Assembly: GCF_002835995.1 (NCBI RefSeq)
Contig: NZ_PJBZ01000039.1
Location: forward strand, 1-64,000
DNA: 64,000 bases
Direction: 5' to 3'
Origin: Psychromonas sp. Urea-02u-13
GTDB lineage: Bacteria > Pseudomonadota > Gammaproteobacteria > Enterobacterales > Psychromonadaceae
Shown here: piece after piece, positions 1 through 13,126 of the stretch
Numbering within the stretch: position 1 is the stretch's first letter
Layout: the number at the start of each line of letters is the position of its first letter
Notes under the pieces: model-generated
The model's input: the letters and a program-made list of their open reading frames with translations, nothing else
Database searches by the model: none
Told to the model about the DNA's origin: nothing
Position numbers and translations under genes: made by a program

Positions 1-564
1 TATATTTGAGAGTGTTGTGGCTTAGTTAAATTGGCTACAGATTTGTAGTTTCTAAGTCTAATGATGGGCGTAAGTGAGTTGGTTCTTTGGCTCGATCGGG
101 GCACATACCGACTTAGGTTTCTAGTACACTCAGTGTGCGTAAGTGAGGAATTATGTAGGGTTACATAATTGTGCATAATTAAGGGTAATTGGCTATCCTA
201 TTAGTTACAATCAGCACATTTTCGAGCTGTCTTTCTGAGGTGCCTGGGGCACAAACTGAGATAGGAATTTGTGCTGATTTACTCTAAATCAGTAGCCAAA
301 ATCACCGTACCACTACAGCATCTCTTGATCGTTTATTCCTTTTTTAGATTGCTATATGCTTTTTATTTTGAATATCAAGATCACTTAAACCATCCATTTT
401 CCACAGTTTAATGTGACTTAGATTACTTTTTTGTTATTTAAAATAAATTGAACTTGAAGCTGTTTTTTTACCTGTGCATTGTATATATATATAACTACAT
501 ATAGTGGTAGGGCTTGACTACTCGTACTATATGTTGTGTTTTAGGTGGTTTTATTGGATGGTGT
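1..564. other. Intergenic leader of the island recombinase module
   Basis: No convincing gene is seen in this AT-rich stretch. It holds an 11-bp direct repeat (GCGTAAGTGAG) at 68-78 and 137-147, a perfect 5-bp palindrome with a one-base centre (ACACTcAGTGT) at 126-136, and a 7-bp inverted repeat (TTATGTA gggt TACATAA) at 151-168. Such clustered repeats in front of a recombinase operon could be binding sites for the recombinase or its regulator. That role is inferred; the far end of the element lies outside the window. Confidence 0.4.
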
Positions 565-1038
565 ATGAAAAAAATATCTATTGGGAATAATTTGATACTA
601 GGCTTTCATCCAATGCTTGATAGATTAATGGAGAATGATCCTATTTCATTGAAGTCTGGTCCTGATATATCAATATTATCAACAAAGCAGTTGAGCATAT
701 TGTGCAAAAATATCATGTTAAATGTAATGCAGTCAGGTGATGGGAAATATTTATTATTATCACCCAATCTAATATATAACCAGCTTATCCAGCACCCTGC
801 AGCAAAAAATGAAGTTGTAAATGTATTGATTCACTCTCCTGAAAGCGAGCAAGAGCTTCTCGCGTTAATTGATACTCTGAATTTAGTTCAGCCAGCCTTA
901 TCTTTATTAGAATCTGCTAACAAATCTAAAACTATTAATGCTCGTTATCTTCAACTAAATAAAATGGGCTACAAACCAACGCCTCTCACATTTTTAGCTA
1001 AATTGGCTAACAAATGCCCATCTACATTGAGAGGTTAA
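565..1038 (+). CDS. Small protein of unknown function, first gene of the recombinase module
   Basis: A 157-residue protein that I do not recognise. The reading frame is open from a TTG at 514, but that codon has no properly spaced ribosome site; ATG 565 (MKKISIGNN) is the better start. The protein is mixed alpha-helical, with no signal peptide or membrane segment. A helix-rich C-terminal half ends in a Lys/Pro-rich tail around LNKMGYKPTPLTFLAKL. It sits 4 bp upstream of the next gene and is surely co-transcribed with it. In other multi-recombinase elements the first gene is often a recombinase, but no R-HxxR-Y signature is visible here. It could be a directionality or accessory factor; this is inference. 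Confidence 0.65.
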   Translation: MKKISIGNNLILGFHPMLDRLMENDPISLKSGPDISILSTKQLSILCKNIMLNVMQSGDGKYLLLSPNLIYNQLIQHPAAKNEVVNVLIHSPESEQELLALIDTLNLVQPALSLLESANKSKTINARYLQLNKMGYKPTPLTFLAKLANKCPSTLRG

Positions 1039-1042
1039 GAGT

Positions 1043-2542
1043 ATGAGTAATAAGCATATTGAAAAGTCTAATCGCTCTAATGCAGGGGGTACACCTTTTC
1101 CTCTTGTGCATGAGCATATGCAGAAGCTTCGTTATTGGTATCAGAGTAAACTGACTAATACACAGTTGTTGGTATTATTACTGACCTGGTTAAAACAAGA
1201 TTTTAAAGCAGTCACAGAACAACAAACCTTCCCTCTGTTTTATCGCTCTAATTCTAATTATTCTAATCAAGCCGAAAGTAATTGTCTGCGAATTCTTCGT
1301 GGGGGCAATAATGTTTCATGGGTGGAATACTCAATTGAGATTGGTAATGAAGAATTTATTTGGATGCCTATTCCTATTGTATTAAGAGGTTTTTTTTGGA
1401 GGGTGTTACAAGAGAACTCTTATGAAAAACCACTATTAAATAAGAGGGAAAGTAGGGTTCTTTATGATTTTTGGATAAGCAAAATGGCAAGGCCTAGAGC
1501 AGACCGTGGGATTAAGATGGCCAATAAAACAGCCTGGGCCAATTATATTAATAATTACTGTCAGGCTGATACCGTACTTTCTAGTAATTCGAAGGCTCTA
1601 TACTTCTCCAACCTACATCATTCTTCAGCAGATGCTTATCAAACAGAGACCATTGAGTCCGATCGTTATCAGTTATTTAAATCTATCAATAATAGTATTA
1701 ACCGTTTAATTTTAGAGGCTGAAAAATGGGGGATATTACCGGATTTTGAGCGCTCTGTTAAAGAACATCACGTTATCCCAAATCGATATGAAAAGTTAGC
1801 TCAATATCTTATAGAAACGCCCGGCTTGATCAGCGAGATCAACATTGATTATAAGGAGCATCACCGAGAAGTCACTAAGGTAAGAAGTTCGCGTATTGGT
1901 ACAAAGAGTGGTGTTGATAAGTTTGCTGTTACTCATTTGTTTAAAGAGCTTAACGATTTATTGTCTGTCAGTAAGCGCAAAGCAAGTAGTCGTTCTGCAT
2001 TCATTTATTATTATAATCAGTGTACCTATATATTTTCCTTGCAACTTATACTGCTCACCAGCCTACGGCCTACTCATCAAATTAGCCCGTCATTGGCTGC
2101 ATTATCTGCAGACCGCTTTAGTGTTAAAGATAAAGGTCAGAGTAGAAATATTCTATTAAGTACTTTCTTACAAGAGCAGGTTATTCGTTATCAAAGTATC
2201 CAGCGTAAGCTACAAAATATAATGCCTTGTTCAGAGAACTCTCCATTTTTGCTTTTCCTGATTGATGATGATTTTAAGCCTGCGCAATTATCAGCTAAAA
2301 AGCTGCGCATATTTACGAATAAGCACTGGCCTGGTCATGTTCCTTATCAGTTAAGAAAAATGTTTTCCCAAACATTGATGGAATTAAAACTGCCTAATCA
2401 TTTACTTGATCGTGCAATGGGGCACTCTCGACTTGGGGAGCACGATGGTGCAATGACTGTCTTCCCACATGAGGAAAAAGTAATGCTTAATGCTCTAAAT
2501 CAATTGCCTGATATCTTCAAAATTAAGCTATTTGATGATTAG
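1043..2542 (+). CDS. Tyrosine-recombinase-fold protein lacking the catalytic tyrosine
   Basis: 499 residues. The C-terminal third has the layout of a phage-integrase catalytic domain: box I Arg at R342 (TSLRPTH), a box II-like segment at 434-441 (PYQLRKMF) where the usual His is Tyr435 and the Arg is R438, and a GHS motif with H461. The nucleophilic Tyr expected 9-10 residues after H461 is absent, and no Tyr occurs between there and the C-terminus. It is therefore probably a catalytically dead recombinase-fold partner. The start ATG follows the previous stop by 4 bp, and its end overlaps the next gene, so the proteins are likely made in fixed ratio. The order resembles the intA-tfp-intB layout described for strand-biased circularizing integrative elements, but I cannot confirm homology. 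Confidence 0.7.
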   Translation: MSNKHIEKSNRSNAGGTPFPLVHEHMQKLRYWYQSKLTNTQLLVLLLTWLKQDFKAVTEQQTFPLFYRSNSNYSNQAESNCLRILRGGNNVSWVEYSIEIGNEEFIWMPIPIVLRGFFWRVLQENSYEKPLLNKRESRVLYDFWISKMARPRADRGIKMANKTAWANYINNYCQADTVLSSNSKALYFSNLHHSSADAYQTETIESDRYQLFKSINNSINRLILEAEKWGILPDFERSVKEHHVIPNRYEKLAQYLIETPGLISEINIDYKEHHREVTKVRSSRIGTKSGVDKFAVTHLFKELNDLLSVSKRKASSRSAFIYYYNQCTYIFSLQLILLTSLRPTHQISPSLAALSADRFSVKDKGQSRNILLSTFLQEQVIRYQSIQRKLQNIMPCSENSPFLLFLIDDDFKPAQLSAKKLRIFTNKHWPGHVPYQLRKMFSQTLMELKLPNHLLDRAMGHSRLGEHDGAMTVFPHEEKVMLNALNQLPDIFKIKLFDD

Positions 2543-5333
2543 TTTTAAAAGTGTAACCGACTGGTTAAATACACAACTAGAAGTCCCGCCTATGAGTGAC
2601 GAGCTCCGTTGGGTGCTGAATCATTGGTCTGAGGTACACAGTGCAATGCAGCCTGTCTTAAGTCGATCAATGTTGGTTGCTATTAACTCTAAAATAAGAA
2701 AAATCTCAACAGGGAAGAGGAGAGGATATCAAAAAGCACTTTCAGTGATTACCGTATATTTATCAGAGTACTTACAGTGGTCGATTCCTGAAAAAGAAAA
2801 AGTAAAACTTCAAGATGCCAATAATAAGTGGTTTGAAGAGGTCACTGCTCAGTCTGCAAATTCGGAGTGTTTAGTTAATAGCCATCAAAAGCTCATAGAG
2901 GATGCAGTAAAGCAGCCTATTAAAGTTAATGCTGCCATGCTGAGTATTACACTCTTATTAGAAACTGCACCGATATCACTACCTGCTATTTTTTACCTAC
3001 TTACCCATCCTGCTGTGCTAGAAGAGGTGGGAGGTATTGCTACGGTTTGTTATCCAGTTTCGCTCGATGATGAAGGTGAACAGAGGCAATATGCTCGTTA
3101 CAAGTTGTCAGCACTTTCATATCGTTTATTGAAAGAATATTTTAGAGCTGGTGGCCCTCTTAAAAACATAAAGGCATTACGTCTTAATATTCGAGAGTAC
3201 CTTGGTTCAGCGCCATTTTATCTGGAAAATGTTTCTGATAGTCAATTACTGAAAATGATCACCTGCTATTGGCAAAAACGACTACCGAACTTTTTCGTAA
3301 AAGATTTTATTAATCCATCCAATCAATTTGCACTACACCCAGCCCGCTATTTGATTGCAGCTAATTGTTCAGATAATTCAAGGCTAACTCAAAATAAAAC
3401 ACTATTTCATACTCATACCACCTTAGATATTAATCCGAGTGGTAAGCAAAAGTGGCCACATAAAAAACTATTAAAGGAATATAAAAAACTAGGTAAGAAA
3501 GCAGTGTTAAAGCTGCTTAAAAGTGAACCTTCAGTAGTCTGGCCACAAGACAATATTCTGCCTCAATTATATTACTTTTATGTTGCAGAGTTAATTGAGT
3601 TTGGTGGGGTTAAAAAAGATACTCTTAGGGTGTCTACGATCGAAACTTATACCAATGGCGATGAGTACCTTAATCTACACCCACTCAGTTTTGATGATGC
3701 AATATCTGAGGAAGCTTTGAACAATTGGGCTGAAGGTTTTTATAAAAATGCTCAATCAGAATCAGTCCGATTACATCTGTTTTACTTCTTGCGGTTTATG
3801 GCTGAGCAAGAGCTTACCGATGCACTTGATATCGATGCCTTTCAGCCAGTCAATTTACCCAAAACTGTCGATGCTAATTTAGTCTCTGCCAAAGAGTTAA
3901 ATGAGATCATGCATCTGCTATCAGAAAGTGAGGCTGAAAATAAATTTCAACAACTGTTCTGCTTGGTTGCAGTGATCTTAAGTTTTCATGGTTGTTTAAG
4001 GCGTGGAGAAATCCTTAGATTACGCATGCAAGATGTTGAGATAAGTGAACCTAAAGGAACGCTATTTCGGCTAACTATTACTAATACTGCAGAAGGGCGT
4101 ACTAAAAATGGTAAGTCGAGAGTTGCGCACATTGAATTACCAATTGAGCAGGCTAAGTTATTAAGGTTATTACTTAAAATAAAAGAAGAGGCGCACTATT
4201 TAGATCCATTGATTGGCTTTTCTGGAGAACTTATCTCTTCTAGAGAAAGGCAATACATTTTACCTATAACACGTGCCATTAAAAGTGTTTGTGGGCCATC
4301 GGCTCGTTTTCATCATTTACGTCATGGTGGCGCATTTGTCCTGGCGAGCCAGGTATTTGTTCTCTTCACAAAAAACGTCTCTTCGGTGAACTGCGTATAT
4401 TTGTCAGCGCTATTACAGGAACCGTTTGTTAAGAATCGATTTTCTTACTGGCTTGAAGGGCGGGGAATTGAACAGGTAAATTCAGTCGTCGCATTGGATG
4501 TTATTGCAGATATGATTGGTCATAGCTTGTTTGAGACCACACGTAAAAGTTATCTGCATGGGCATGAATGGATTGGGGGCTACTTTACGCCTCAGGTACA
4601 GCAATATTCTAAACTCCTCCTTCGCTATATTTTGGGGTTAAATGTTGGTTCAAATGACATATCCAGACAAGTAAATATCCTCATAAGTAACGACATAGAA
4701 AATTTACAATCTATTTCCCATAGTAGTACTAACTTACTCCCTCGAAGGGTTCATGAGATGGCGGTTAACAAGGCCAGTAAACTATCTTGGCTAGCTACAT
4801 GTGATACAAATTTAGTAGATCCTAATTGGACTGCTTTTTGGATAGAAAAGCTAGCTAGAACTTCTGATTGCTCTTTAGATTTATTGATACAAAACTCTTT
4901 AAATACCAAAGCAATAAATAGCTCTGTGACTTGGGAAGAATTAAGTAAGATCAAGCAATTACTCTACAGAAACAAGCTATCCACTCAATACAAAAAAACG
5001 ACTTACAAGCTAATTAAACAGCTACTTTGCAAGCTAGATATTAAAGAGTGCTCTTTCGAAATGGAAATGACAAAAAGGGCTGCTGTTAGGTATGAAAAAA
5101 TATTTAAGCTACCTGAGTTTGCTGTTTTTAATCGTCATTTCACTTTGTTTAAGAACCGAGGGACTTTAAGTGACAAGCAAGAGTTGTTCATTGCGCATGA
5201 AATCTTTATCGCTAACGAAAAACTTATGGTAGAGCCCATTCATTTAGGAAAAACAAAGCTTGTTGTTAGGCTGGAGTTATCTGGTATTTCAGAGCAGTGG
5301 CTAATCAATATTTATCGACAATTATTTTTATAA
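2535..5333 (+). CDS. Very large tyrosine recombinase / integrase
   Basis: 932 residues from ATG 2535; a TTG one codon earlier is possible. ATG 2535 overlaps the upstream stop by 8 nt, suggesting translational coupling. The catalytic set is intact: Arg489 in LRRGEIL, H593-x-x-R596 in HHLRH, H663 in IGHS, and nucleophile Y673 in RKSYLH, ten residues after H663. Typical tyrosine recombinases are 300-400 residues. This one has a long N-terminal part (about 480 residues), about 66 residues between R596 and H663 where roughly 22 are usual, and about 260 residues after Tyr673. It is predicted to cut and rejoin DNA at the element ends, probably together with the inactive partner upstream. Confidence 0.8.
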   Translation: MISFKSVTDWLNTQLEVPPMSDELRWVLNHWSEVHSAMQPVLSRSMLVAINSKIRKISTGKRRGYQKALSVITVYLSEYLQWSIPEKEKVKLQDANNKWFEEVTAQSANSECLVNSHQKLIEDAVKQPIKVNAAMLSITLLLETAPISLPAIFYLLTHPAVLEEVGGIATVCYPVSLDDEGEQRQYARYKLSALSYRLLKEYFRAGGPLKNIKALRLNIREYLGSAPFYLENVSDSQLLKMITCYWQKRLPNFFVKDFINPSNQFALHPARYLIAANCSDNSRLTQNKTLFHTHTTLDINPSGKQKWPHKKLLKEYKKLGKKAVLKLLKSEPSVVWPQDNILPQLYYFYVAELIEFGGVKKDTLRVSTIETYTNGDEYLNLHPLSFDDAISEEALNNWAEGFYKNAQSESVRLHLFYFLRFMAEQELTDALDIDAFQPVNLPKTVDANLVSAKELNEIMHLLSESEAENKFQQLFCLVAVILSFHGCLRRGEILRLRMQDVEISEPKGTLFRLTITNTAEGRTKNGKSRVAHIELPIEQAKLLRLLLKIKEEAHYLDPLIGFSGELISSRERQYILPITRAIKSVCGPSARFHHLRHGGAFVLASQVFVLFTKNVSSVNCVYLSALLQEPFVKNRFSYWLEGRGIEQVNSVVALDVIADMIGHSLFETTRKSYLHGHEWIGGYFTPQVQQYSKLLLRYILGLNVGSNDISRQVNILISNDIENLQSISHSSTNLLPRRVHEMAVNKASKLSWLATCDTNLVDPNWTAFWIEKLARTSDCSLDLLIQNSLNTKAINSSVTWEELSKIKQLLYRNKLSTQYKKTTYKLIKQLLCKLDIKECSFEMEMTKRAAVRYEKIFKLPEFAVFNRHFTLFKNRGTLSDKQELFIAHEIFIANEKLMVEPIHLGKTKLVVRLELSGISEQWLINIYRQLFL

Positions 5334-5345
5334 CTGAGGTGTAGT

Positions 5346-6614
5346 ATGGAAACAACAATTTCTTTATGTGCGGATAAAACAAAAGAACTGATTATTTTAT
5401 TGGAAACAGCTGATAAAAAGTCTCCTGAATATAGAAAGTTTTTGCTTGAGCTAGATAAAAAATCTGGTGAAATTACATTTGTTGTCGGCAGCTCACAGGT
5501 GATGAGTCGCTTAATAGTTGGAGAAGGTAGTCTTGACCAAACTATGAATGACAAAGAGTATTTTTCTCATAATGCAGATTTATTGCTTAACGTTTTATCT
5601 AGTCCTGCCACTTCGTTAAATATAACGTTGAACTCAGATAAGACTGGACGAATAGAGATGACTTTTCCTAGCCTACCCAAGTTACGTAAAGGGTATTGTA
5701 AAGGCATAGAAGATGTACACCTTCAATATCTGAACGCAATTGATGATGCTAGTGTCAAGAAGTATGACAAAGATACGCTACTTGGATTAGTGCAGTTAGT
5801 GGATGAACAATGCCGGCCTTTTGAGTTTGTATTATTGAACTCAGAAGAAGGTGGGGACAGTGTCAAAGTGCAAAGAGATGGCGAAGTATTCTCTGAAAAG
5901 CTAGATACGAATACCCATTTAGGTATTGAGCTTTGTTTAGACAAAAAAACAATTAGCATAATCGATGACGTGTGTGAAAGTAGTACTGAAAAAGAGATCG
6001 GAATTCATGTAGGGCAAGGAGAAATTATATTCAAATTAAAGGATCGTGTTACCTCGGTATCTATACCAGACCATAGTGATTTTTTGTCAAAGATCGAATC
6101 CAAAAAAGACACCGTCATTAGCTTTATATTAAATGGCTATAAATTAAAAGATGAGCTGGGTGGTTATGTAAAAATGCATGACATTAAACAACAAGAGCAA
6201 AGTTACTTGCTGTTTCACAAAGGAAAGTTGGTTGTTTGTGCTAAATCAGAAGATCAGGATTGTGCTGATATATTAGATCTCATTGATGTAAGGTCTAGTG
6301 AGGATGACTTGTTGTTAATGGTTAATCTACATTTATTTAAAGATTTTAAAGTTAAAGATACAACAGAGCATCATAAACTAAAGGCATCAATAACAAAGTC
6401 GCATGATGGAGAGTATTGCTTCTCATTTTATAGTAGTTCTGATCCACGTAATGCGTTTTTCTCTGTTCCTTGTATAGCCGCACCAAGTCATATGAGCGAA
6501 ATTAAAGATCTACACGCTCAACTGAAAAAGCAGTTAATAGCTCAGAAGAAAAAAGTAAAAGTAAGTCATGAGCAGCTTGATTTGGTTGGATATGGTGAGT
6601 TGTTGGATGTGTGA
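5346..6614 (+). CDS. Putative divergent DNA sliding-clamp-like (DnaN-like) protein
   Basis: 422 residues, 12 bp after the recombinase with a good ribosome site (GAGGTG), so it is part of the same operon. No family is obvious, but the pattern matches a bacterial beta clamp by eye across at least two domains. Around 205-240 a segment ending SVSIPDHSDF resembles the end of DnaN domain II (KLVDGRFPDY), followed by a spacing like DnaN domain III. Residues about 293-335, with EDQDCADILDLIDV then MVNLHLFKDF, resemble the clamp segment EEAEEILDV then FNVSYVLDVL. A FPSLPKL motif near residue 115 resembles the domain I/II linker. The length is about 55 residues above E. coli DnaN. The fold assignment is inference from manual alignment; the protein is otherwise uncharacterised. 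Confidence 0.45.
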   Translation: METTISLCADKTKELIILLETADKKSPEYRKFLLELDKKSGEITFVVGSSQVMSRLIVGEGSLDQTMNDKEYFSHNADLLLNVLSSPATSLNITLNSDKTGRIEMTFPSLPKLRKGYCKGIEDVHLQYLNAIDDASVKKYDKDTLLGLVQLVDEQCRPFEFVLLNSEEGGDSVKVQRDGEVFSEKLDTNTHLGIELCLDKKTISIIDDVCESSTEKEIGIHVGQGEIIFKLKDRVTSVSIPDHSDFLSKIESKKDTVISFILNGYKLKDELGGYVKMHDIKQQEQSYLLFHKGKLVVCAKSEDQDCADILDLIDVRSSEDDLLLMVNLHLFKDFKVKDTTEHHKLKASITKSHDGEYCFSFYSSSDPRNAFFSVPCIAAPSHMSEIKDLHAQLKKQLIAQKKKVKVSHEQLDLVGYGELLDV

Positions 6615-6659
6615 GGCAAGAAAGTCTTCTACCTAATTACTGGCAGAAGACTCGCTATA

Positions 6660-6950
6660 TTACTTGTAATATTGTTTACATCTTTTCGAATTGTGTTTCC
6701 AAGAACGAGACAACTCACTAACAATAGATGGATAATCATCCCAAGGGTCTGGTAATACTCGCCCTCTAGCCGCTCTTAATTTAATGGGATAACCTCTAGT
6801 TTCAATCAAATGTATGAAGTAGAAGCTCTTTTCTTGCTTTGTGCTAAAAGACTTATGGGTTCCACTGCGTATGCTTGGATATATTTCCCATGAATAATTG
6901 CAGTGGCTACGCTTAACGCAATTACGATAATGCTGTTTTAATTTTTTCAT
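6660..6950 (-). CDS. Small basic Cys-containing protein of unknown function
   Basis: 96 residues on the minus strand, convergent with the clamp-like gene. A strong ribosome site (CTGGAGGG, 5 nt from ATG) supports it as a real gene. It is rich in Lys, Arg, Tyr and Trp, with a KxxxxYRNCVKRSHCNYSW segment near the N-terminus and a conserved-looking PDPWDDYPSI motif near residue 70. No signal peptide or membrane segment is seen. It could be a nucleic-acid-binding accessory protein of the island. I do not recognise a family. Confidence 0.55.
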   Translation of the reverse strand: MKKLKQHYRNCVKRSHCNYSWEIYPSIRSGTHKSFSTKQEKSFYFIHLIETRGYPIKLRAARGRVLPDPWDDYPSIVSELSRSWKHNSKRCKQYYK

Positions 6951-7098
6951 TTACCCTCCAGGTTTACAGTACCTAGAAAGGGTCTCCTTCAAAATAATTC
7001 ATTTATGCTCCAGTTTTAATAAAGTTATAGTGGTATTTTAGTATGAAATTCGAGCAAATACACATGATGATAATAAAAATTCTTATTGTTAGGTTATT

Positions 7099-7185
7099 AA
7101 GGGTAACCCTTACCTCTTGTAGCGTGTAAAGTTTGATTTACCTGCTCAGCCGTGTAATACTTTGTTTACTTGTTATAGCGTGTAA
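7099..7185 (+). promoter_or_regulatory. hipBA promoter region with three 28-bp-phased repeats
   Basis: The heptamer CGTGTAA occurs three times at exactly 28-bp spacing: 7123-7129, 7151-7157 and 7179-7185. The outer copies share the longer form TAGCGTGTAA. A perfect inverted repeat AAGGGT-a-ACCCTT lies at 7099-7111. The last repeat overlaps the hipB ribosome-binding region. HipB proteins repress their own promoter by binding several phased operators, so these are candidate HipB operators, although the sequence is unlike the E. coli TATCC-N8-GGATA operator. Confidence 0.5.
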
Positions 7186-7193
7186 GGTGAAAC

Positions 7194-7448
7194 ATGAAAA
7201 TATCCACAACAAAACAACTCAGTGCATATTTAAAGGATGTTCGTTTAGATAATGAACTATCTCAAGCGGATGTCGCTAAAAAGGTTGGGGTTCGCCAAGA
7301 TACGGTTTCAAATTTTGAGTTAAGAGCTGGAACGACCAAGATGGATACTTTTTTTAAGCTACTTTCTGCGCTTGAGTTAGATTTTGAAATTACACCTCGT
7401 AATGGAAAAAATAGCGATGATGGTTCAGGTTGGAAAGAGGAGTGGTAA
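7194..7448 (+). CDS. hipB: HipB-type antitoxin / transcriptional repressor
   Basis: 84 residues with a Cro/C1-type helix-turn-helix over about residues 15-65 (LSQADVAKKVGVRQDTVSNF). Length and position match HipB, which binds the HipA kinase, neutralises it and represses the operon. Its stop codon overlaps the hipA start by one base (taATG), so translation is coupled. The C-terminal tail ends in a Trp (WKEEW), as is common in HipB proteins. Confidence 0.88.
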   Translation: MKISTTKQLSAYLKDVRLDNELSQADVAKKVGVRQDTVSNFELRAGTTKMDTFFKLLSALELDFEITPRNGKNSDDGSGWKEEW

Positions 7449-8752
7449 TGGCTACCTTAGATGTCTACCTCAATGGTTATCTTGTTGGTGAGTTTAAAAA
7501 ATCGAGCAATGGTGCCCACTCTTTTAGCTACTCAACGAGCTGGCTGGCATTGAATGGAAGCCGACCAATATCATTATCAATGCCACTCGCTAAGTCTGAA
7601 TATCGTGGTGATGTTGTGTATAACTACTTTGATAATTTATTGCCTGACAACTCAGAGGTCAGACAACGCATTGTTGCGCGTTATCAAGCAGGCTCTTCTT
7701 TACCCTTTGATTTGTTATCTATGATCGGTAGGGACTGTGTAGGTGCTTTACAGCTATTACCAAAAGGAGAAGCCCCTCTTAACGTTAAAAATCTAGAATA
7801 TAGAGCATTAGGTAATGAAGAGTTAGATAAAATAATAATGGGATATCGTGCCGATATGCCACTTGGTATGATTGAAGATCTGCAAGATTTCCGCATATCC
7901 GTTGCGGGAGCACAAGAAAAAACAGCGCTATTGAATATCGATCAAACTTGGTGTTTACCCTTAAACTCCACACCTACTTCGCACATTATCAAACTGCCTA
8001 TTGGGCAGATTCAAAGTCACTCTTACTCACTAGATATGTCTGATAGCGTAGAGAATGAATTCTTATGTATGCAATTACTACAAGCTTACGGCTTATCTGC
8101 TGCTGGCTGTGAAATATTAACATTAGAGGAGATGAATGTACTTTCTGTTGAACGTTTTGATCGCCAATATTCAAGTGATAAAAAATGGTTAATGAGAAGA
8201 CCTCAAGAAGATTACTGCCAAGTATTTAATGTACCTTCAGCCTTGAAGTATGAAAATCAAGGTGGTCCAGGCATTGAGCAAATCATGAATCATCTATTAG
8301 GCTCAAAGAATGCAGTAAAAGATAGAGCTGATTTTATGAAAGCACAAGTGCTGTTTTGGCTGATGGGAGCATCAGATGGTCACGCTAAAAACTTTTCTAT
8401 TTTCATTTTACCTGACGGACAATTTCAATTAACACCATTCTATGATGTGTTATCTGTTTTCCCTGTCGTGAATAAGAAAGGGCTGAATATTCGTCAGGTA
8501 AAACTGGCGATGGGCTTAAAAGCGACGAAAGGGAAAAAGTATCATATTAATAAAATCTACCCTCGACATTTTATTGAAACAGCGAAGCAAGTTGGCTTTG
8601 AAACAGCCAAAATGGATACTATACTAAGTGAGATTAAAGCTAGCACTGAGCAAGTAATTATTGATATTCAAGCTAGGTTGCCAGTAAATTTTCCTGAAAA
8701 TATATCAGAAAGTATATTTTCAGGGATGCTAAAACAGCTTAAAAAGTTATAA
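7448..8752 (+). CDS. hipA: HipA-type serine/threonine kinase toxin
   Basis: 434 residues from ATG 7448, the start that overlaps the hipB stop; an in-frame ATG at 7430 lies inside hipB. It aligns along its whole length with E. coli HipA: N-terminal FDNLLPD, the Gly-rich loop in ISVAGAQEKTALL, THIIKLPIG, the PQED segment, and the catalytic loop GASDGHAKNFSIF followed by TPFYDVLS. HipA phosphorylates glutamyl-tRNA synthetase in E. coli and causes growth arrest and persistence. The pair lies at the island end next to the tRNA fragment, where it could stabilise the element by post-segregational killing. Confidence 0.92.
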   Translation: MATLDVYLNGYLVGEFKKSSNGAHSFSYSTSWLALNGSRPISLSMPLAKSEYRGDVVYNYFDNLLPDNSEVRQRIVARYQAGSSLPFDLLSMIGRDCVGALQLLPKGEAPLNVKNLEYRALGNEELDKIIMGYRADMPLGMIEDLQDFRISVAGAQEKTALLNIDQTWCLPLNSTPTSHIIKLPIGQIQSHSYSLDMSDSVENEFLCMQLLQAYGLSAAGCEILTLEEMNVLSVERFDRQYSSDKKWLMRRPQEDYCQVFNVPSALKYENQGGPGIEQIMNHLLGSKNAVKDRADFMKAQVLFWLMGASDGHAKNFSIFILPDGQFQLTPFYDVLSVFPVVNKKGLNIRQVKLAMGLKATKGKKYHINKIYPRHFIETAKQVGFETAKMDTILSEIKASTEQVIIDIQARLPVNFPENISESIFSGMLKQLKKL

Positions 8753-8976
8753 ATTAAGTTTCATATGTTGAATTTTTTCAATAGTAAAGCTCAGTAATTT
8801 TGTAGCTTAAGAATTTAAATTGTCGTTATTGTTGTGGCCAAATGGTGGCCAATAATTTAATTTGACCGTTTAATCCGATCAAAAAAGGGCTTAAATGGTG
8901 TGGTTTATTGTGTTTTAACTGTTTGTTTTTAATGTGTTTTGTTGTTTTTTAGTAACTTGTGCTAATTTTGTGTTTA
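8753..8976. other. Right-end junction DNA of the island, no gene
   Basis: A 224-bp non-coding stretch between hipA and the tRNA fragment. It contains a TGGCCAA/TGGCCAAT direct repeat at about 8835-8852 and T-rich tracts. Repeats near an att core are often integrase or excisionase arm sites. This is inference only. Confidence 0.35.
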
Positions 8977-9023
8977 AGCCTTCCAAGCTGATAATGCGGG
9001 TTCGATTCCCGCTGCCCGCTCCA
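8977..9023 (+). repeat. attR-like 3' fragment of tRNA-Gly(TCC)
   Basis: These 47 nt match the 3' part of gammaproteobacterial tRNA-Gly(TCC): the TTCCAA anticodon-loop region, the T-arm with GGTTCGATTCC, the acceptor 3' strand GCCCGCT and the CCA end. The 5' half of a tRNA is absent upstream, so this is not a functional tRNA. Duplication of a tRNA 3' end is the classical right attachment site of an integrated element. The intact tRNA-Gly gene should lie at the other island end, left of the window. Confidence 0.9.
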
Positions 9024-9640
9024 AGTTTTATCTACACTAAATCAACATTATGGTTGATTTTTTCGTTTCTGCTCTCTTGTAAAATTAAATTTTCTAGTAA
9101 CTTATAGCACACACTATTTTCATTTATTAGTAATGCTTCGTCACACTTCCATTAACTCGTTCCAATAAAAACATCTCTCTATTTTTAAAATAAATTTTCT
9201 GCAAATGATTCTCTGCCACCTACTTTGTATAATTCCTCTATGAGCAATTTAAGATACGCTACATAGTGTATCAATCGACTCAAGTTCTACTCTTGTTATT
9301 CTCTCGTCAAATACCTGTTTAATCGTTTTATTTAAAAATTCCTTGATCAATATTAGAGTAATAATTCTTGTAGAAAGCTGCCTCGCTCTATTTTGTAAGG
9401 CAGGGACTCTGTAAATACTTGCTTTAGATCTCTTTTTATCTTGGGTAAATACAGTTTATCTATGAGTCTTGCACCAAAATAGCATTTCATTCCATATCAT
9501 TAACTACCTACTATCGACTTATAACAATTTAAGTGTGACGACTCTGACCGTTGATGTTTATGTGTTTTATTTTATTGAAATCATAATGTTTAACGGGACA
9601 TGAGAAATTATATTCAGTCATTAGTAAAACAGGAAAAAAA
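9024..9640. other. Intergenic region upstream of pullulanase
   Basis: A 617-bp AT-rich region with no convincing gene. Its one notable element is the malto-regulon motif at 9468-9489, about 150 bp before the pullulanase start. It marks the return from island to core chromosome. Confidence 0.5.
9468..9489 (+). promoter_or_regulatory. Conserved malto-regulon motif (pul copy)
   Basis: Core AAAATAGCATTTC at 9476-9488. The 39 bp from 9471 match the 39 bp from 13891, upstream of the glucosidase-glk operon, at 32 positions, although the flanking DNA is unrelated. A third copy stands upstream of lamB. Probable binding site or promoter element of a shared alpha-glucan regulator; the regulator is unknown. 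Confidence 0.5.
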
Positions 9641-12600
9641 ATGGAATTTAAAATCAAGACATTAGCTCGTTTGACCATGCCACTATTTGTTGTAGCAACC
9701 TTAGTTGCATGTGGTGATAGCAACAATCAAGAGCCTACACCCGGTGATGATAGTAATGGCGAGCTTAACTATTTACGGAAAGATGCGAGCTATGATGGCT
9801 GGGGGTTACATATATGGAATGATAATCCTGATTGTGACGGTGCGGCTGATAGTGCAGTGACAGATTGGGATCATCCGTTATTAGCGACTAGCGTTGGTGA
9901 AAACGGTGGGGTTTATGATATTCCATTGAAGCCTGGTGCAACCTGTGTGACTTATCTAATGCACAAGGGAGGGGAAAAAGAACCCGGAGGTGATCGCCAA
10001 TGGGACATTAGTACTATTGGTAAAAAAGTATACCTAGTTCAAGGAAAAGTAGATCTTTCTGATTCGCCTATTCCATTGTCTATTTATGATGGCTCAAAAG
10101 GCATTTTAATTGATGCGTCTACCGTTGCTTGGGATGCAAGTAGTGCTGATACCTTTGAAGTTCATTACTCAGCCAATGGAGGTTTTGAAGTAAATGATGC
10201 TACTGGCGAAGTTATTTCTGAAACTCAATTATTAATGCTTACGAGTAAAACTAAGCCTGATGGCGTTGCTAAACGTTATGAAAGTTATCAATTTTTTGGT
10301 TTTGAACTACCTGAAAACCTTAACGAAACTAGATTAATGAGTGGGCAATTAGTACTTGTTGCTAAAAATGCAGAAGGTCGTATTTATGATGCAACAGGGG
10401 TCCAATTAGCCCCTGCTTTAGATGTAGTATATGCAACAGGTGAGGCAGGAGCACAACATGAAGCTCTAGGTGCAATCGTTTCTGGCACTGATGCAACATT
10501 TAAATTGTGGGCGCCAACGGCAAAAAATGTCGCACTTTATCTTTATGATGACAATTTAGCGATGGTTGGTGATGCAATCACTATGGTGCGTAAAGATAAT
10601 GGGACGTGGGAAGTTGCAGATGTTTCGAATGCGCTAGGTAAATACTATCGCTATGAAGTTGAGGTCTATCACGCAGCGCTAGATAACGTTGAAACACTGC
10701 AAGTAACCGACCCTTACTCTCTAAGTTTATCTGTTAATAGTATGTATTCTCAAGTCGTTGATTTAAAAGTTGATGCTAAACCTACAGGCTGGGATACGCA
10801 CACTATACCAACAGTGACTAACCCTGAAGCTCAGGTTATCTATGAAACACATCTTCGTGATTTAAGCTCCGCTCCGAATGATGGTGGAACAGATGCACTG
10901 GATGGTAAATATATAGCAATCACTGAAACGGATCGTGAAAGTGTTAAACAGTTAGCTTCTCTGGCTGAGAATGGTTTAAATACTATTCACTTAATGAATC
11001 TATTTGATATTGCAACCGTTGATGAAAATCCTGAAAAACGTGTTGAATTAAGTGATACGGTTGGCAAGCTTTGCGAATTAAATAAAAGCGCAGCTGTTTG
11101 TAATGATGGTGTTAATGCTTCAACGATACGTGAAGTGCTCGAAGGTTATGATCCAACTTCAAGTGACGCACAAGCGTTAATGAATGATTTACGTATGTAC
11201 GATAGCTTCAACTGGGGCTATGACCCATTCCATTACACGGCACCAGAAGGTAGTTACGCAACTGATGCAAAAGGTACTGCACGTATTGAAGAGTACCGCA
11301 CTCTCATCATGGAACTGCATGCAATGGGTTACCGCGTAGTGATGGATGTGGTTTATAACCACACTAATTCTGCTGGCACTGATGATAAGTCAGTATTGGA
11401 TAAAATTGTCCCTGGATATTACCAGCGTTTAAATGCATCGGGTTATATTGAAACATCAACTTGTTGTTCAAATACAGCGACAGAAAACATCATGATGGGT
11501 AAGTTAATGACTGACTCTCTGGTTACTTGGGCACAAGAATACAAGATTGATGGTTTCCGTTTTGATTTAATGGGTCATCAACCTAAGCAACTTATGGTCG
11601 ACTCACTTGCAGCTGTCAAAGTTGTAGATGCGGATACTTATTTTTATGGAGAAGGCTGGAACTTTGGTGAAGTCGCAGATGATGCGCTTTTTGAGCAAGC
11701 AACACAGGCGAATATGGGCGGGACTGAAATAGGTACCTTCTCAGACAGACTGCGTGATGCGGTGCGTGGTGGTAGTCCATTTGATGATGGCGATACATTA
11801 CGTGAAAACCAAGGTTTTGCTAATGCTGGAGTTTGGAATGAAATGCAAACAGACTCAGATGCATCGCTAGTTAAGCTAAGAAAAGACGGCGATATCATCC
11901 GTTTAGGAATGGCAGGTAACTTAGCCAACTTCGTGCTACTTGATCAACAAGGCAATACTAAGCGTGGCCAAGATATTGATTATAATGGTCAAAAAGCAGG
12001 TTATACCATTGATCCGGCTGAGAATATCGCCTATGTGTCTAAACATGATAACCAGACACTTTGGGATAATAATATGTATAAGATCGCATCGGATGTAACC
12101 TCTGATCAACGCGCTCAAATGCAGATCATAGCATTAAGTACCAACATGCTTGGCCAAGGTATCCCTTTCTTCCATATGGGATCAGAACTGTTACGATCTA
12201 AATCAATGCAGCGTGATAGTTACGACTCAGGTGATTGGTATAATATCGTTAACTACGATATGAGTAGCAATAATTGGAATGTCGGTTTACCACGTGAAGA
12301 TAAAGATGGCAGTAACTGGCCCTTAATCTCAACTATTATTGCAGATACAAATGCAGAGCCTATGGTCGCAGATATTGAATGGACGAATGCACGCTTTAAA
12401 GAGCTACTAAAAATTCGTACCAGCTCACCGCTATTTAGTCTTGAAACGGAAGCAGATATTAAAGCACGTGTTGATTTTCGCAATACAGGTATTGATTCTG
12501 TTGCCGGTGTCATTGTAATGAGCATTGATGACGGTGTAGGCCTTGTTGATTTAGATGAGACAGTTGATGCAATTGTTACTGTCATTAACGCAACGAATGA

Positions 12601-13126
12601 ACAGCAAGTTATTCCAGTCGTAGGAGCAACTGATTTTATATTACATGGCGAACTAATAGCAGGTACGGCTTCTTTTTCTGGGAATGAATTTACTGTCCCT
12701 GCATTAACGACAGCAGTGTTTGTTAAAGTACAATCTGGTGCACAAGGTGTTGGTTTATCAGTTGATAATAGTAAGAAAGATTTATCATCGATTCCGCCAT
12801 TTGGTAATGATATTCCTCATGTTCGTGGTGATATGAATAGCTGGGGTGATGCCGATGCAATGGATTTTGTTAGCGCGGGTATTTACAGCATGACGATGAC
12901 ATTGGAAGCGGGTACTTATGGCTTTAAAGTCGCCGATCCAACTTGGAATGCAATTAACTACGGCACTGCAGGAGCATTAGTACTAGGTGAAGCGTTAGCA
13001 TTAAATGGTAGTGATAATATTTCACTAACATTAGATGCTAAATCAGTCGTTACCTTTAGTTTTGATGCGAATGATAAAGATTTAGCAATGTTAACCGTTA
13101 CTGCAATTGAAAGTTACCAGTTGTAG
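9641..13126 (+). CDS. pulA: Lipoprotein pullulanase (GH13), C-terminally truncated
   Basis: 1161 residues that hydrolyse alpha-1,6 branches in pullulan, starch or glycogen. A lipoprotein signal (LVAC, Cys24) predicts outer-membrane or surface anchoring. Domains in order: CBM41-like starch-binding module (about 45-150), a linker module, CBM48-like N-domain (about 275-380), the GH13 barrel (about 400-950), a beta-sandwich, and a C-terminal module starting near HVRGDMNSWG (about 1060-1155). Catalytic residues are visible: region I D569-VVYNH, nucleophile D642 (GFRFDLMGH), acid E671 (GEGWNFG) and D803 (SKHDNQT). The pullulanase signature NWGYDP is present near residue 525. A further homologous module follows in the same frame after stop codons, so the annotated end is probably a truncation. 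Start ATG follows AGGAAAA. Confidence 0.92.
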   Translation: MEFKIKTLARLTMPLFVVATLVACGDSNNQEPTPGDDSNGELNYLRKDASYDGWGLHIWNDNPDCDGAADSAVTDWDHPLLATSVGENGGVYDIPLKPGATCVTYLMHKGGEKEPGGDRQWDISTIGKKVYLVQGKVDLSDSPIPLSIYDGSKGILIDASTVAWDASSADTFEVHYSANGGFEVNDATGEVISETQLLMLTSKTKPDGVAKRYESYQFFGFELPENLNETRLMSGQLVLVAKNAEGRIYDATGVQLAPALDVVYATGEAGAQHEALGAIVSGTDATFKLWAPTAKNVALYLYDDNLAMVGDAITMVRKDNGTWEVADVSNALGKYYRYEVEVYHAALDNVETLQVTDPYSLSLSVNSMYSQVVDLKVDAKPTGWDTHTIPTVTNPEAQVIYETHLRDLSSAPNDGGTDALDGKYIAITETDRESVKQLASLAENGLNTIHLMNLFDIATVDENPEKRVELSDTVGKLCELNKSAAVCNDGVNASTIREVLEGYDPTSSDAQALMNDLRMYDSFNWGYDPFHYTAPEGSYATDAKGTARIEEYRTLIMELHAMGYRVVMDVVYNHTNSAGTDDKSVLDKIVPGYYQRLNASGYIETSTCCSNTATENIMMGKLMTDSLVTWAQEYKIDGFRFDLMGHQPKQLMVDSLAAVKVVDADTYFYGEGWNFGEVADDALFEQATQANMGGTEIGTFSDRLRDAVRGGSPFDDGDTLRENQGFANAGVWNEMQTDSDASLVKLRKDGDIIRLGMAGNLANFVLLDQQGNTKRGQDIDYNGQKAGYTIDPAENIAYVSKHDNQTLWDNNMYKIASDVTSDQRAQMQIIALSTNMLGQGIPFFHMGSELLRSKSMQRDSYDSGDWYNIVNYDMSSNNWNVGLPREDKDGSNWPLISTIIADTNAEPMVADIEWTNARFKELLKIRTSSPLFSLETEADIKARVDFRNTGIDSVAGVIVMSIDDGVGLVDLDETVDAIVTVINATNEQQVIPVVGATDFILHGELIAGTASFSGNEFTVPALTTAVFVKVQSGAQGVGLSVDNSKKDLSSIPPFGNDIPHVRGDMNSWGDADAMDFVSAGIYSMTMTLEAGTYGFKVADPTWNAINYGTAGALVLGEALALNGSDNISLTLDAKSVVTFSFDANDKDLAMLTVTAIESYQL

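Follow-up and report, generated by a model that had tools for sequence, protein, structure and literature searches.

A Four-Gene Recombinase Block of Marine Gammaproteobacteria with a Sliding-Clamp-Like Protein and a Clamp-Binding-Like Tail

We analyzed the first 64,000 nucleotides of a contig of Psychromonas sp. Urea-02u-13 (this stretch, positions 1 to 64,000, is called the window; it starts at the first base of the contig). Four adjacent genes near its start, w1 to w4, belong to a conserved block in which a large tyrosine recombinase, w3, is followed by a protein, w4, that is probably related to the bacterial sliding clamp, DnaN. The C terminus of w4 commonly carries a peptide resembling those that bind the clamp. 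We suggest, at what we judge to be even odds, that w1 to w4 are a site-specific recombination block of marine Gammaproteobacteria in which the clamp-derived w4 acts as a tether between the recombinases and the host clamp or replication.

A conserved four-gene block

The preliminary description of this DNA had placed four tightly packed genes at positions 565 to 6614, and four open reading frames (ORFs) are indeed found there on the forward strand, with 4 nucleotides between w1 and w2, an 11-nucleotide overlap of w2 and w3, and 12 nucleotides between w3 and w4. Homologues exist for every one of them and their order is conserved, so they did not arise as ORFs by chance. The leading gene, w1 (565 to 1038; 157 amino acids; family alignment A3), has no recognized fold and also precedes w2 in relatives. 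Its start was placed at the ATG at 565, with a TTG at 514 as a possible alternative. Pfam, NCBIfam, and PADLOC returned no match to w1, and PHROG returned one weak match only (E 0.027). Next come w2 (1043 to 2542; 499 amino acids; alignment A2) and w3 (2532 to 5333; 933 amino acids), which starts at the TTG at 2532 or at the ATG at 2535. Among the four proteins, Pfam recognized w3 alone (Phage_integrase, E 2e-7); NCBIfam and PADLOC scans of all four gave nothing meaningful, and PHROGs matched w3 to integrases and, weakly, to two unknown families. The last gene is w4 (5346 to 6614; 422 amino acids).

Searching with the alignment of the w3 family (A4) yielded 40 named loci, all of which contain w3 by construction, since the w3 family was the query. 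These loci span Shewanella, Vibrio, Photobacterium, Psychromonas, Ferrimonas, Salinivibrio, Pseudoalteromonas, and uncultured relatives. All four genes occur in order in 30 of the 40, with one gene in two pieces in L041, L055, and L057. A w2 gene was detected in 39 of the 40 loci, w1 was unrecognized in 8, and w4 lies on the same strand directly after w3 in every locus except L039 (39/40).

We also approached the block from w4. A single-sequence search with w4 found 17 places among 394 genomes of the order, of which we examined 14. The three set aside were the window itself and two short, weak matches interrupted by stops (G181 and G025). The w4 gene adjoins w3 in 13 of these 14 regions; of the block, the remaining region, L019, has nothing but w1 and w4 fragments. 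Searched as a profile at E <= 0.001, w4 was found in 14 of the 394 genomes of the order and, in a set of 369 genomes of the class, in one, which is the window's own. On these counts w4 belongs to the operon rather than being a family that moves about independently, and its homologues are found mostly beside recombinase genes and not outside such operons.

With w3 as the sole query (w4 was not searched there), the block was not matched in the phages collection or in viral_contigs, and neither the window w4 nor that of L046 matched any plasmid. Broken pieces of w3 are present on a 19-kb plasmid of Shewanella putrefaciens, pSA70-4 (L072).

One catalytically complete recombinase and one lacking the nucleophile

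The proposal that two of the genes have a tyrosine-recombinase fold held up, with a clear division between them. The complete catalytic set (R, K, HxxR, H, and Y) is kept by 38 of 38 aligned w3 members of at least 850 amino acids. In w2, the box-I Arg, the Arg of YxLR, and GH are constant in 36 of 36 aligned members of at least 480 amino acids, and in the same 36 members Y replaces the H of HxxR. A Tyr at 9 or 10 residues past GH is absent from all 36, although a few have a Tyr in neighboring columns. Because the expected place of the nucleophile holds no Tyr, we regard w2 as a protein with the recombinase fold that lacks the nucleophile. Matches of w2 to known recombinases were sparse: 2 of 13 members matched an XerC model (best E 5.1e-8), and a search of the Protein Data Bank (PDB) gave a weak match to an XerC-like recombinase (E 0.062).

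w4 is probably a relative of the sliding clamp

By eye, w4 had been likened to the three-domain clamp. We compared a profile of 37 w4 proteins (A5) with a profile of 30 DnaN proteins, taken from 30 loci of a 60-genome phylum draw, by using hhalign. The two profiles aligned with a probability of 86.4% and an E-value of 4.7e-6; exchanging query and target gave 90.4% and 1.4e-6. Both E-values refer to a single pair of profiles. The alignment covers 277 columns, joining w4 columns 5 to 315 with DnaN 4 to 310 at about 12% identity. Its score was 51.7, whereas reversed DnaN scored 19.1, reversed w4 scored 18.2, and 100 block-shuffled DnaN profiles scored at most 26.7. When DnaN was compared with 24 ORF families from the fetched loci, the w4 family scored 53.1 and the best of the 23 others scored 23.0. 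The score was 52.6 when the rows of the window and of P. arctica were left out.

Divided by domain, the first third of w4 matched DnaN domain I (E 2e-4) and the middle matched domain II (E 6.8e-6). One pairing noticed by eye, SVSIPDHSDF with RFPDY, falls in the same register within the confident stretch of the profile alignment. A DnaN hidden Markov model (HMM) run on 538 proteins, 39 of them w4, placed w4 proteins in 8 of the top 10 positions. A profile of w4 positions 136 to 312 found the beta clamps 1vpk (E 0.11) and 3t0p (E 0.25) in the PDB, with the register kept, among 11 matches. Two subgroups of w4, taken on their own, aligned in register but more weakly, at 54.5% for 24 rows (Shewanella and others) and at 16.8% for four rows (Ferrimonas, the window, and P. 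arctica). The net charge of w4 is within the DnaN range.

Several results count against a clamp ancestry. The last third of w4 against DnaN domain III alone gave an E-value of 0.17, and that region is reached only by a low-confidence extension of the alignment. The second by-eye pairing, ADILDLIDV, keeps the register of the EExIDV region but lies only in this extension. The best E-value of any w4 with the DnaN HMM was 0.063. Against 177,635 PDB sequences, A5 ranked the beta subunit 1vpk third of five matches (E 0.76), and a 14-row w4 profile (A1) found no beta clamp; in the search with positions 136 to 312, the unrelated MIC60 (0.027) and EspP (0.077) outranked both clamps. Pfam clamp models matched none of the 37 w4 members. 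Nine Vibrionaceae rows alone gave 1.7%, out of register, and no w4 subgroup exceeded 15.2% against halves of the DnaN set.

The failures at domain III, in the Vibrionaceae, and with Pfam are what would be expected if w4 were an unrelated beta-rich accessory protein that matches the DnaN profile by chance and whose tail alone contacts the host clamp, as in beta-binding transposases; the evidence on the tail, given below, stands on its own and would fit that case equally. We consider such an origin unlikely, since two adjoining domains match in register with a score about twice that of every decoy. The profile comparisons thus argue with good confidence that w4 is a DnaN homologue. The original likening to a three-domain clamp is supported for domains I and II, but not for domain III taken alone or for the Vibrionaceae proteins taken alone.

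Homology need not mean that w4 works as a clamp. For the C-terminal MPMRL of DnaN, which is seen in six DnaN ends and presumably belongs to the peptide pocket, no clear equivalent is evident in w4, the alignment there being of low confidence. A w4 that is loaded on the DNA of the element and replaces host DnaN while the element is copied would suit the clamp-like body and the DnaN-like charge. We think this very unlikely, given the lack of a clear MPMRL counterpart in the alignment and of any polymerase or loader gene in the block.

The w4 tail resembles clamp-binding peptides

The clamp-like body of w4 is followed by a tail whose end is often Q-x-D-(L/M)-(F/L)-GF-D. The bacterial clamp-binding motif is given as QL(S/D)LF (PMC9690074), and insertion sequence (IS) transposases that bind beta are described as carrying such motifs at their C termini (PMC4549789). 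We searched the last 45 residues of 24 non-redundant w4 proteins (below 70% identity) for the strict pattern Q-x-(D/S)-(L/M)-(F/L). It is present in 15 of the 24 tails, compared with 0.13 expected from shuffled tails. A looser motif, which includes the QLDLV of the window, is present in 17 of the 24 (0.8 expected) and within the last 60 residues of 26 of the 37 w4 members. Elsewhere in the block, the strict motif is rare (0/22 in w1, 1/19 in w2, 0/22 in w3, and 0/5 in w5, the integrase gene described below). It occurs in 4 of 499 other proteins and in none of 30 DnaN proteins.

The simplest reading of this enrichment is that the w4 tail docks on the host beta clamp, and recruitment of the host clamp through the tail is plausible. 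Two facts detract from this reading: the strict motif is missing from 9 of the 24 tails, and the window's own candidate peptide, QLDLV (positions 6573 to 6587, forward strand, near the w4 C terminus), fits the looser pattern only.

A fifth gene and apparent exchange of the block

The description of the block as a four-gene module was right in that four genes are conserved in order but incomplete in that relatives usually carry a fifth. This gene, w5, encodes an ordinary tyrosine integrase of about 390 amino acids. Of the 39 w4-bearing loci, 35 have it after w4 and in the same orientation. It is in two pieces in L037, and no w5 follows w4 in L032, L033 (where the contig ends), L051, and L066. 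Among 13 genomes of the order with a w4 frame longer than 360 amino acids, 12 carry a w5 of at least 59% identity; the exception is the window's genome. The w5 gene is not adjacent to w4 in G003, G258, and G301, in the last of which it is in two pieces, and G218 has a w5 of at least 59% identity without w4.

The five genes differ in how well they are conserved. For 80 random pairs of five-gene loci, the median identity was 71% for w5 and 24 to 35% for w1 to w4, with pairs lacking a BLAST hit scored as 0 (9 for w1 and 3 for w4). In L042 and L050, one of 13 hand-picked pairs, w5 is 99% identical and w1 to w4 are 22 to 33% identical. In another hand-picked pair, L046 and L047, the values are 96% and 32 to 47%, and the upstream flank is 89% identical at the DNA level. 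Because w1 to w4 are far less alike than a near-identical w5 in some pairs, they seem at times to be swapped as a block beside a conserved w5, either by their own recombinase or by homologous recombination. Other pairs have no such contrast: w2 to w5 are 91 to 95% identical between L040 and L047, and identity is 65 to 82% throughout between L046 and L063.

Remnants are visible around some copies. Older pieces of w1 lie upstream of the present w1 in L046, L047, and L070, the truncated copies retaining the w1 5' end, and extra or fused w1 copies lie just upstream of the block in L044 (779 to 1105), L067 (6191 to 7279), and L070 (5963 to 6767). A second copy of the w5 3' end was seen 13 to 14 kb upstream of the w5 end in L034 (around 893 to 1270) and L071 (around 125); it is possibly an old junction or attachment site.

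Replacement of w1 to w4 beside a near-identical w5, together with the gap in median identity, could also come from a fast-evolving conflict or defense block next to an island integrase, w5. Its recombinase would attack invading or competing DNA, and the link to the clamp would direct it to replicating DNA. Of 20 hand-picked flank proteins, 5 have HipA, Fic, or AbiEii domains, which suit such a role. The window proteins, however, have no PADLOC match, the w3 catalytic residues are invariant, and the pairs L040/L047 and L046/L063 do not have the w5 contrast; moreover, the recombination cores of islands may also diverge with their target sites. We hold a defense function to be improbable and continue to favor a recombination block that is occasionally exchanged.

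Mobility of the block itself would be easier to accept if its ends were visible. The preliminary description had called for the same gene order in other genomes with defined element ends, and the order was recovered, in the 30 loci noted above, but ends of w1 to w4 were not. No 12-mer is common to 7 or more of 31 upstream regions, and comparison of L042 with L045 gave no clear w1-to-w4 junction, so that mobility of the block is putative. In the window, the 11-mers common to positions 1 to 564 and 6615 to 9640 are four direct and one inverted, mostly AT-rich.

The window copy lies in a tRNA-Gly island

The block had been described as part of a tRNA-associated island, and the island end bears this out: positions 8977 to 9023 (forward strand) hold a 47-bp copy of the 3' end of tRNA-Gly(TCC), which we designate attR, the distal end of the island. 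ARAGORN found no whole tRNA in the window. A weak Rfam match of this segment to transfer-messenger RNA (E 0.0018) was rejected because ARAGORN reads whole copies in relatives as tRNA-Gly(TCC). The identical 47-bp 3' end is present in 5 of 8 whole tRNA-Gly(TCC) genes compared in the genus; the other three (the genome's own gene and those of G004 and G008) have a changed T stem that is still paired. The genome's own tRNA-Gly(TCC) gene is on contig C46 (2350 to 2424, minus strand), with an integrase gene (434 to 1636, minus strand) 3' of it. Since the T stem of this gene differs from that of the displaced 3' end, tRNA restoration by the element is directly legible from the sequences. A displaced 3' end at one border and a whole tRNA gene with an integrase gene at the other, on two contigs, are the marks of a tRNA island. 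Its expected order is tRNA-Gly, integrase, gap, w1 to w4, hipBA, and displaced 3' end, the contigs not being physically joined.

Where relatives have w5, the window has a hipB-like antitoxin gene (7194 to 7448) and a hipA-like gene (7430 to 8752; Pfam HipA_C, 4.3e-51), both on the forward strand and both island cargo. As a fixed partner of the block, hipBA was rejected: hipA or hipB relatives (E <= 1e-5) occur in 9 of the 39 loci with w4, scattered on either side. Those of L042, L045, L051, and L059 lie upstream of the block in the opposite orientation, and the five other loci have them in other places. In G004, a 7.6-kb version between two tRNA-Gly sites matches the hipBA stretch of the window and holds fragments of w1 and w4.

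The w5 gene was not found in the window (best tblastn E 0.062), and at E <= 1e-60 the window's genome has a single w5 relative, at 37% identity, and none at 59% or above. This absence, along with the tRNA-Gly end and the integrase on C46, raises an appreciable possibility, although one that we place below even, that the window copy has decayed, has no current function, and is carried along in an ordinary tRNA-Gly island that the conventional C46 integrase mobilizes. Relatives do decay: w3 is shortened in P. arctica (L032), and only w1 and w4 fragments are left in G004. Yet the four ORFs of the window are open and of the usual length, and the w3 catalytic residues are kept. The window copy, in a tRNA-Gly island without a recognizable w5, may be an inactive relic.

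Other neighbors were noted. Among 10 hand-picked right-flank proteins, 6 are of polysaccharide type, encoded to the right of w5 in L034, L036, L052, L057, L063, and L070; right-flank domains include UDP-glucose dehydrogenase, epimerase, nucleotidyl transferase, and Polysacc_synt_2. The block perhaps sits at the edge of surface-polysaccharide clusters. Just beyond the island end in the window is an ORF of 1161 amino acids (9641 to 13126), whose product resembles a pullulanase-type lipoprotein.

A model for tethered recombination

What we observed is the gene order, the catalytic residues, the profile similarity, the tail motif, and the island end. Building on these, we infer the fold of w4, its binding to the clamp, its tethering role, and a coupling to replication. 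In this model, w3 would cut and join DNA, and w2, its relative lacking the nucleophile, would probably bind DNA or hold the synapse or the sites, with w1 as an accessory. The w4 protein would have descended from DnaN, keeping a clamp-like body, seemingly losing the residues of the peptide pocket, and bearing a tail peptide that docks on the clamp. As a tether, it would likely bring the complex of w2 and w3 to replicating DNA; alternatively, it might bring the host clamp, with a polymerase or ligase, to a recombination intermediate. Strand exchange would then be completed by host replication. Where w5 is present, this ordinary integrase may work with or beside w1 to w4.

More specifically, we put forward as a tentative idea, a little short of even odds, that a sliding-clamp descendant became a core part of a multi-recombinase module, lost its pocket, and acquired a peptide directed at the clamp of the host, and that w1 to w4 are exchanged as a cassette beside a conserved integrase.

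Comparison with known systems

Compared with DnaN, w4 is alike in body length, in its collinear profile match over domains I and II, and in net charge. It differs in having about 12% identity, no clear MPMRL end, and a domain III unsupported alone, as well as an extra tail with a clamp-binding-like motif and a location beside recombinase genes.

Multi-recombinase elements of Gammaproteobacteria include the gamma-mobile-trio. The block does not appear to belong to it: the GmtY model (NF040693, cut-off of 340 bits) did not match w1 to w4 of the window or the 11 w3, 13 w2, and 5 w5 proteins searched. Elsewhere in the window's genome, the GmtY model, the only model of the trio checked, had three matches below the cut-off and none above it.

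A closer parallel is the strand-biased circularizing integrative element (SE), whose core is given as intA-tfp-intB-srap and whose recombination intermediate is proposed to be resolved by host replication (PMC10214605). Our model includes an intermediate resolved by replication because it follows this thinking. The cores of both systems consist of four genes, which encode a large recombinase, a protein of recombinase fold that lacks the nucleophile Tyr (Tfp in SEs, w2 here), and accessory proteins, and both systems occur in marine Gammaproteobacteria; gene order and sizes differ, w4 having 422 amino acids and Srap 161 (PMC10214605). Membership of the block among SEs was rejected, as the w1 to w5 profiles had no convincing match to the four core proteins of pAQU1 (hhalign, 2.3% at most), a single SE member represented by single sequences, whose core we assigned by its place beside blaGMA-1, order, and size. 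The best likeness, weak, was that of w2 to IntB by hmmsearch (E 0.0034, 3.8 bits).

The GInt elements (ginABCD) likewise combine several recombinase-fold genes and an accessory gene in one operon, with cargo beside the core, and no clamp-like gene appears in the part of their description considered here (PMC5385486). Among the titles and abstracts listed in a literature search whose coverage mostly excluded subscription papers, none describes the w1-to-w4 module. As judged from the sequences, a clamp-like gene with a clamp-binding-like tail appears to be a novel feature among multi-recombinase island modules.

The block touches the questions of how strand exchange is completed in multi-recombinase islands (SE, GInt, and Tn554-like) and of why no empty site is left by some of them. 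If our reading is right, a clamp-like core gene with a clamp-binding-like tail would provide a molecular handle for the host-replication idea put forward for SEs. With beta-binding IS transposases, the block shares a C-terminal clamp-binding motif in a mobile-element protein; as far as the cited text goes, those transposases carry the motif themselves, whereas here it is carried by a separate, clamp-like protein (PMC4549789). Recruitment of a clamp relative to recombination, with one clamp relative riding on another, would be out of the ordinary.

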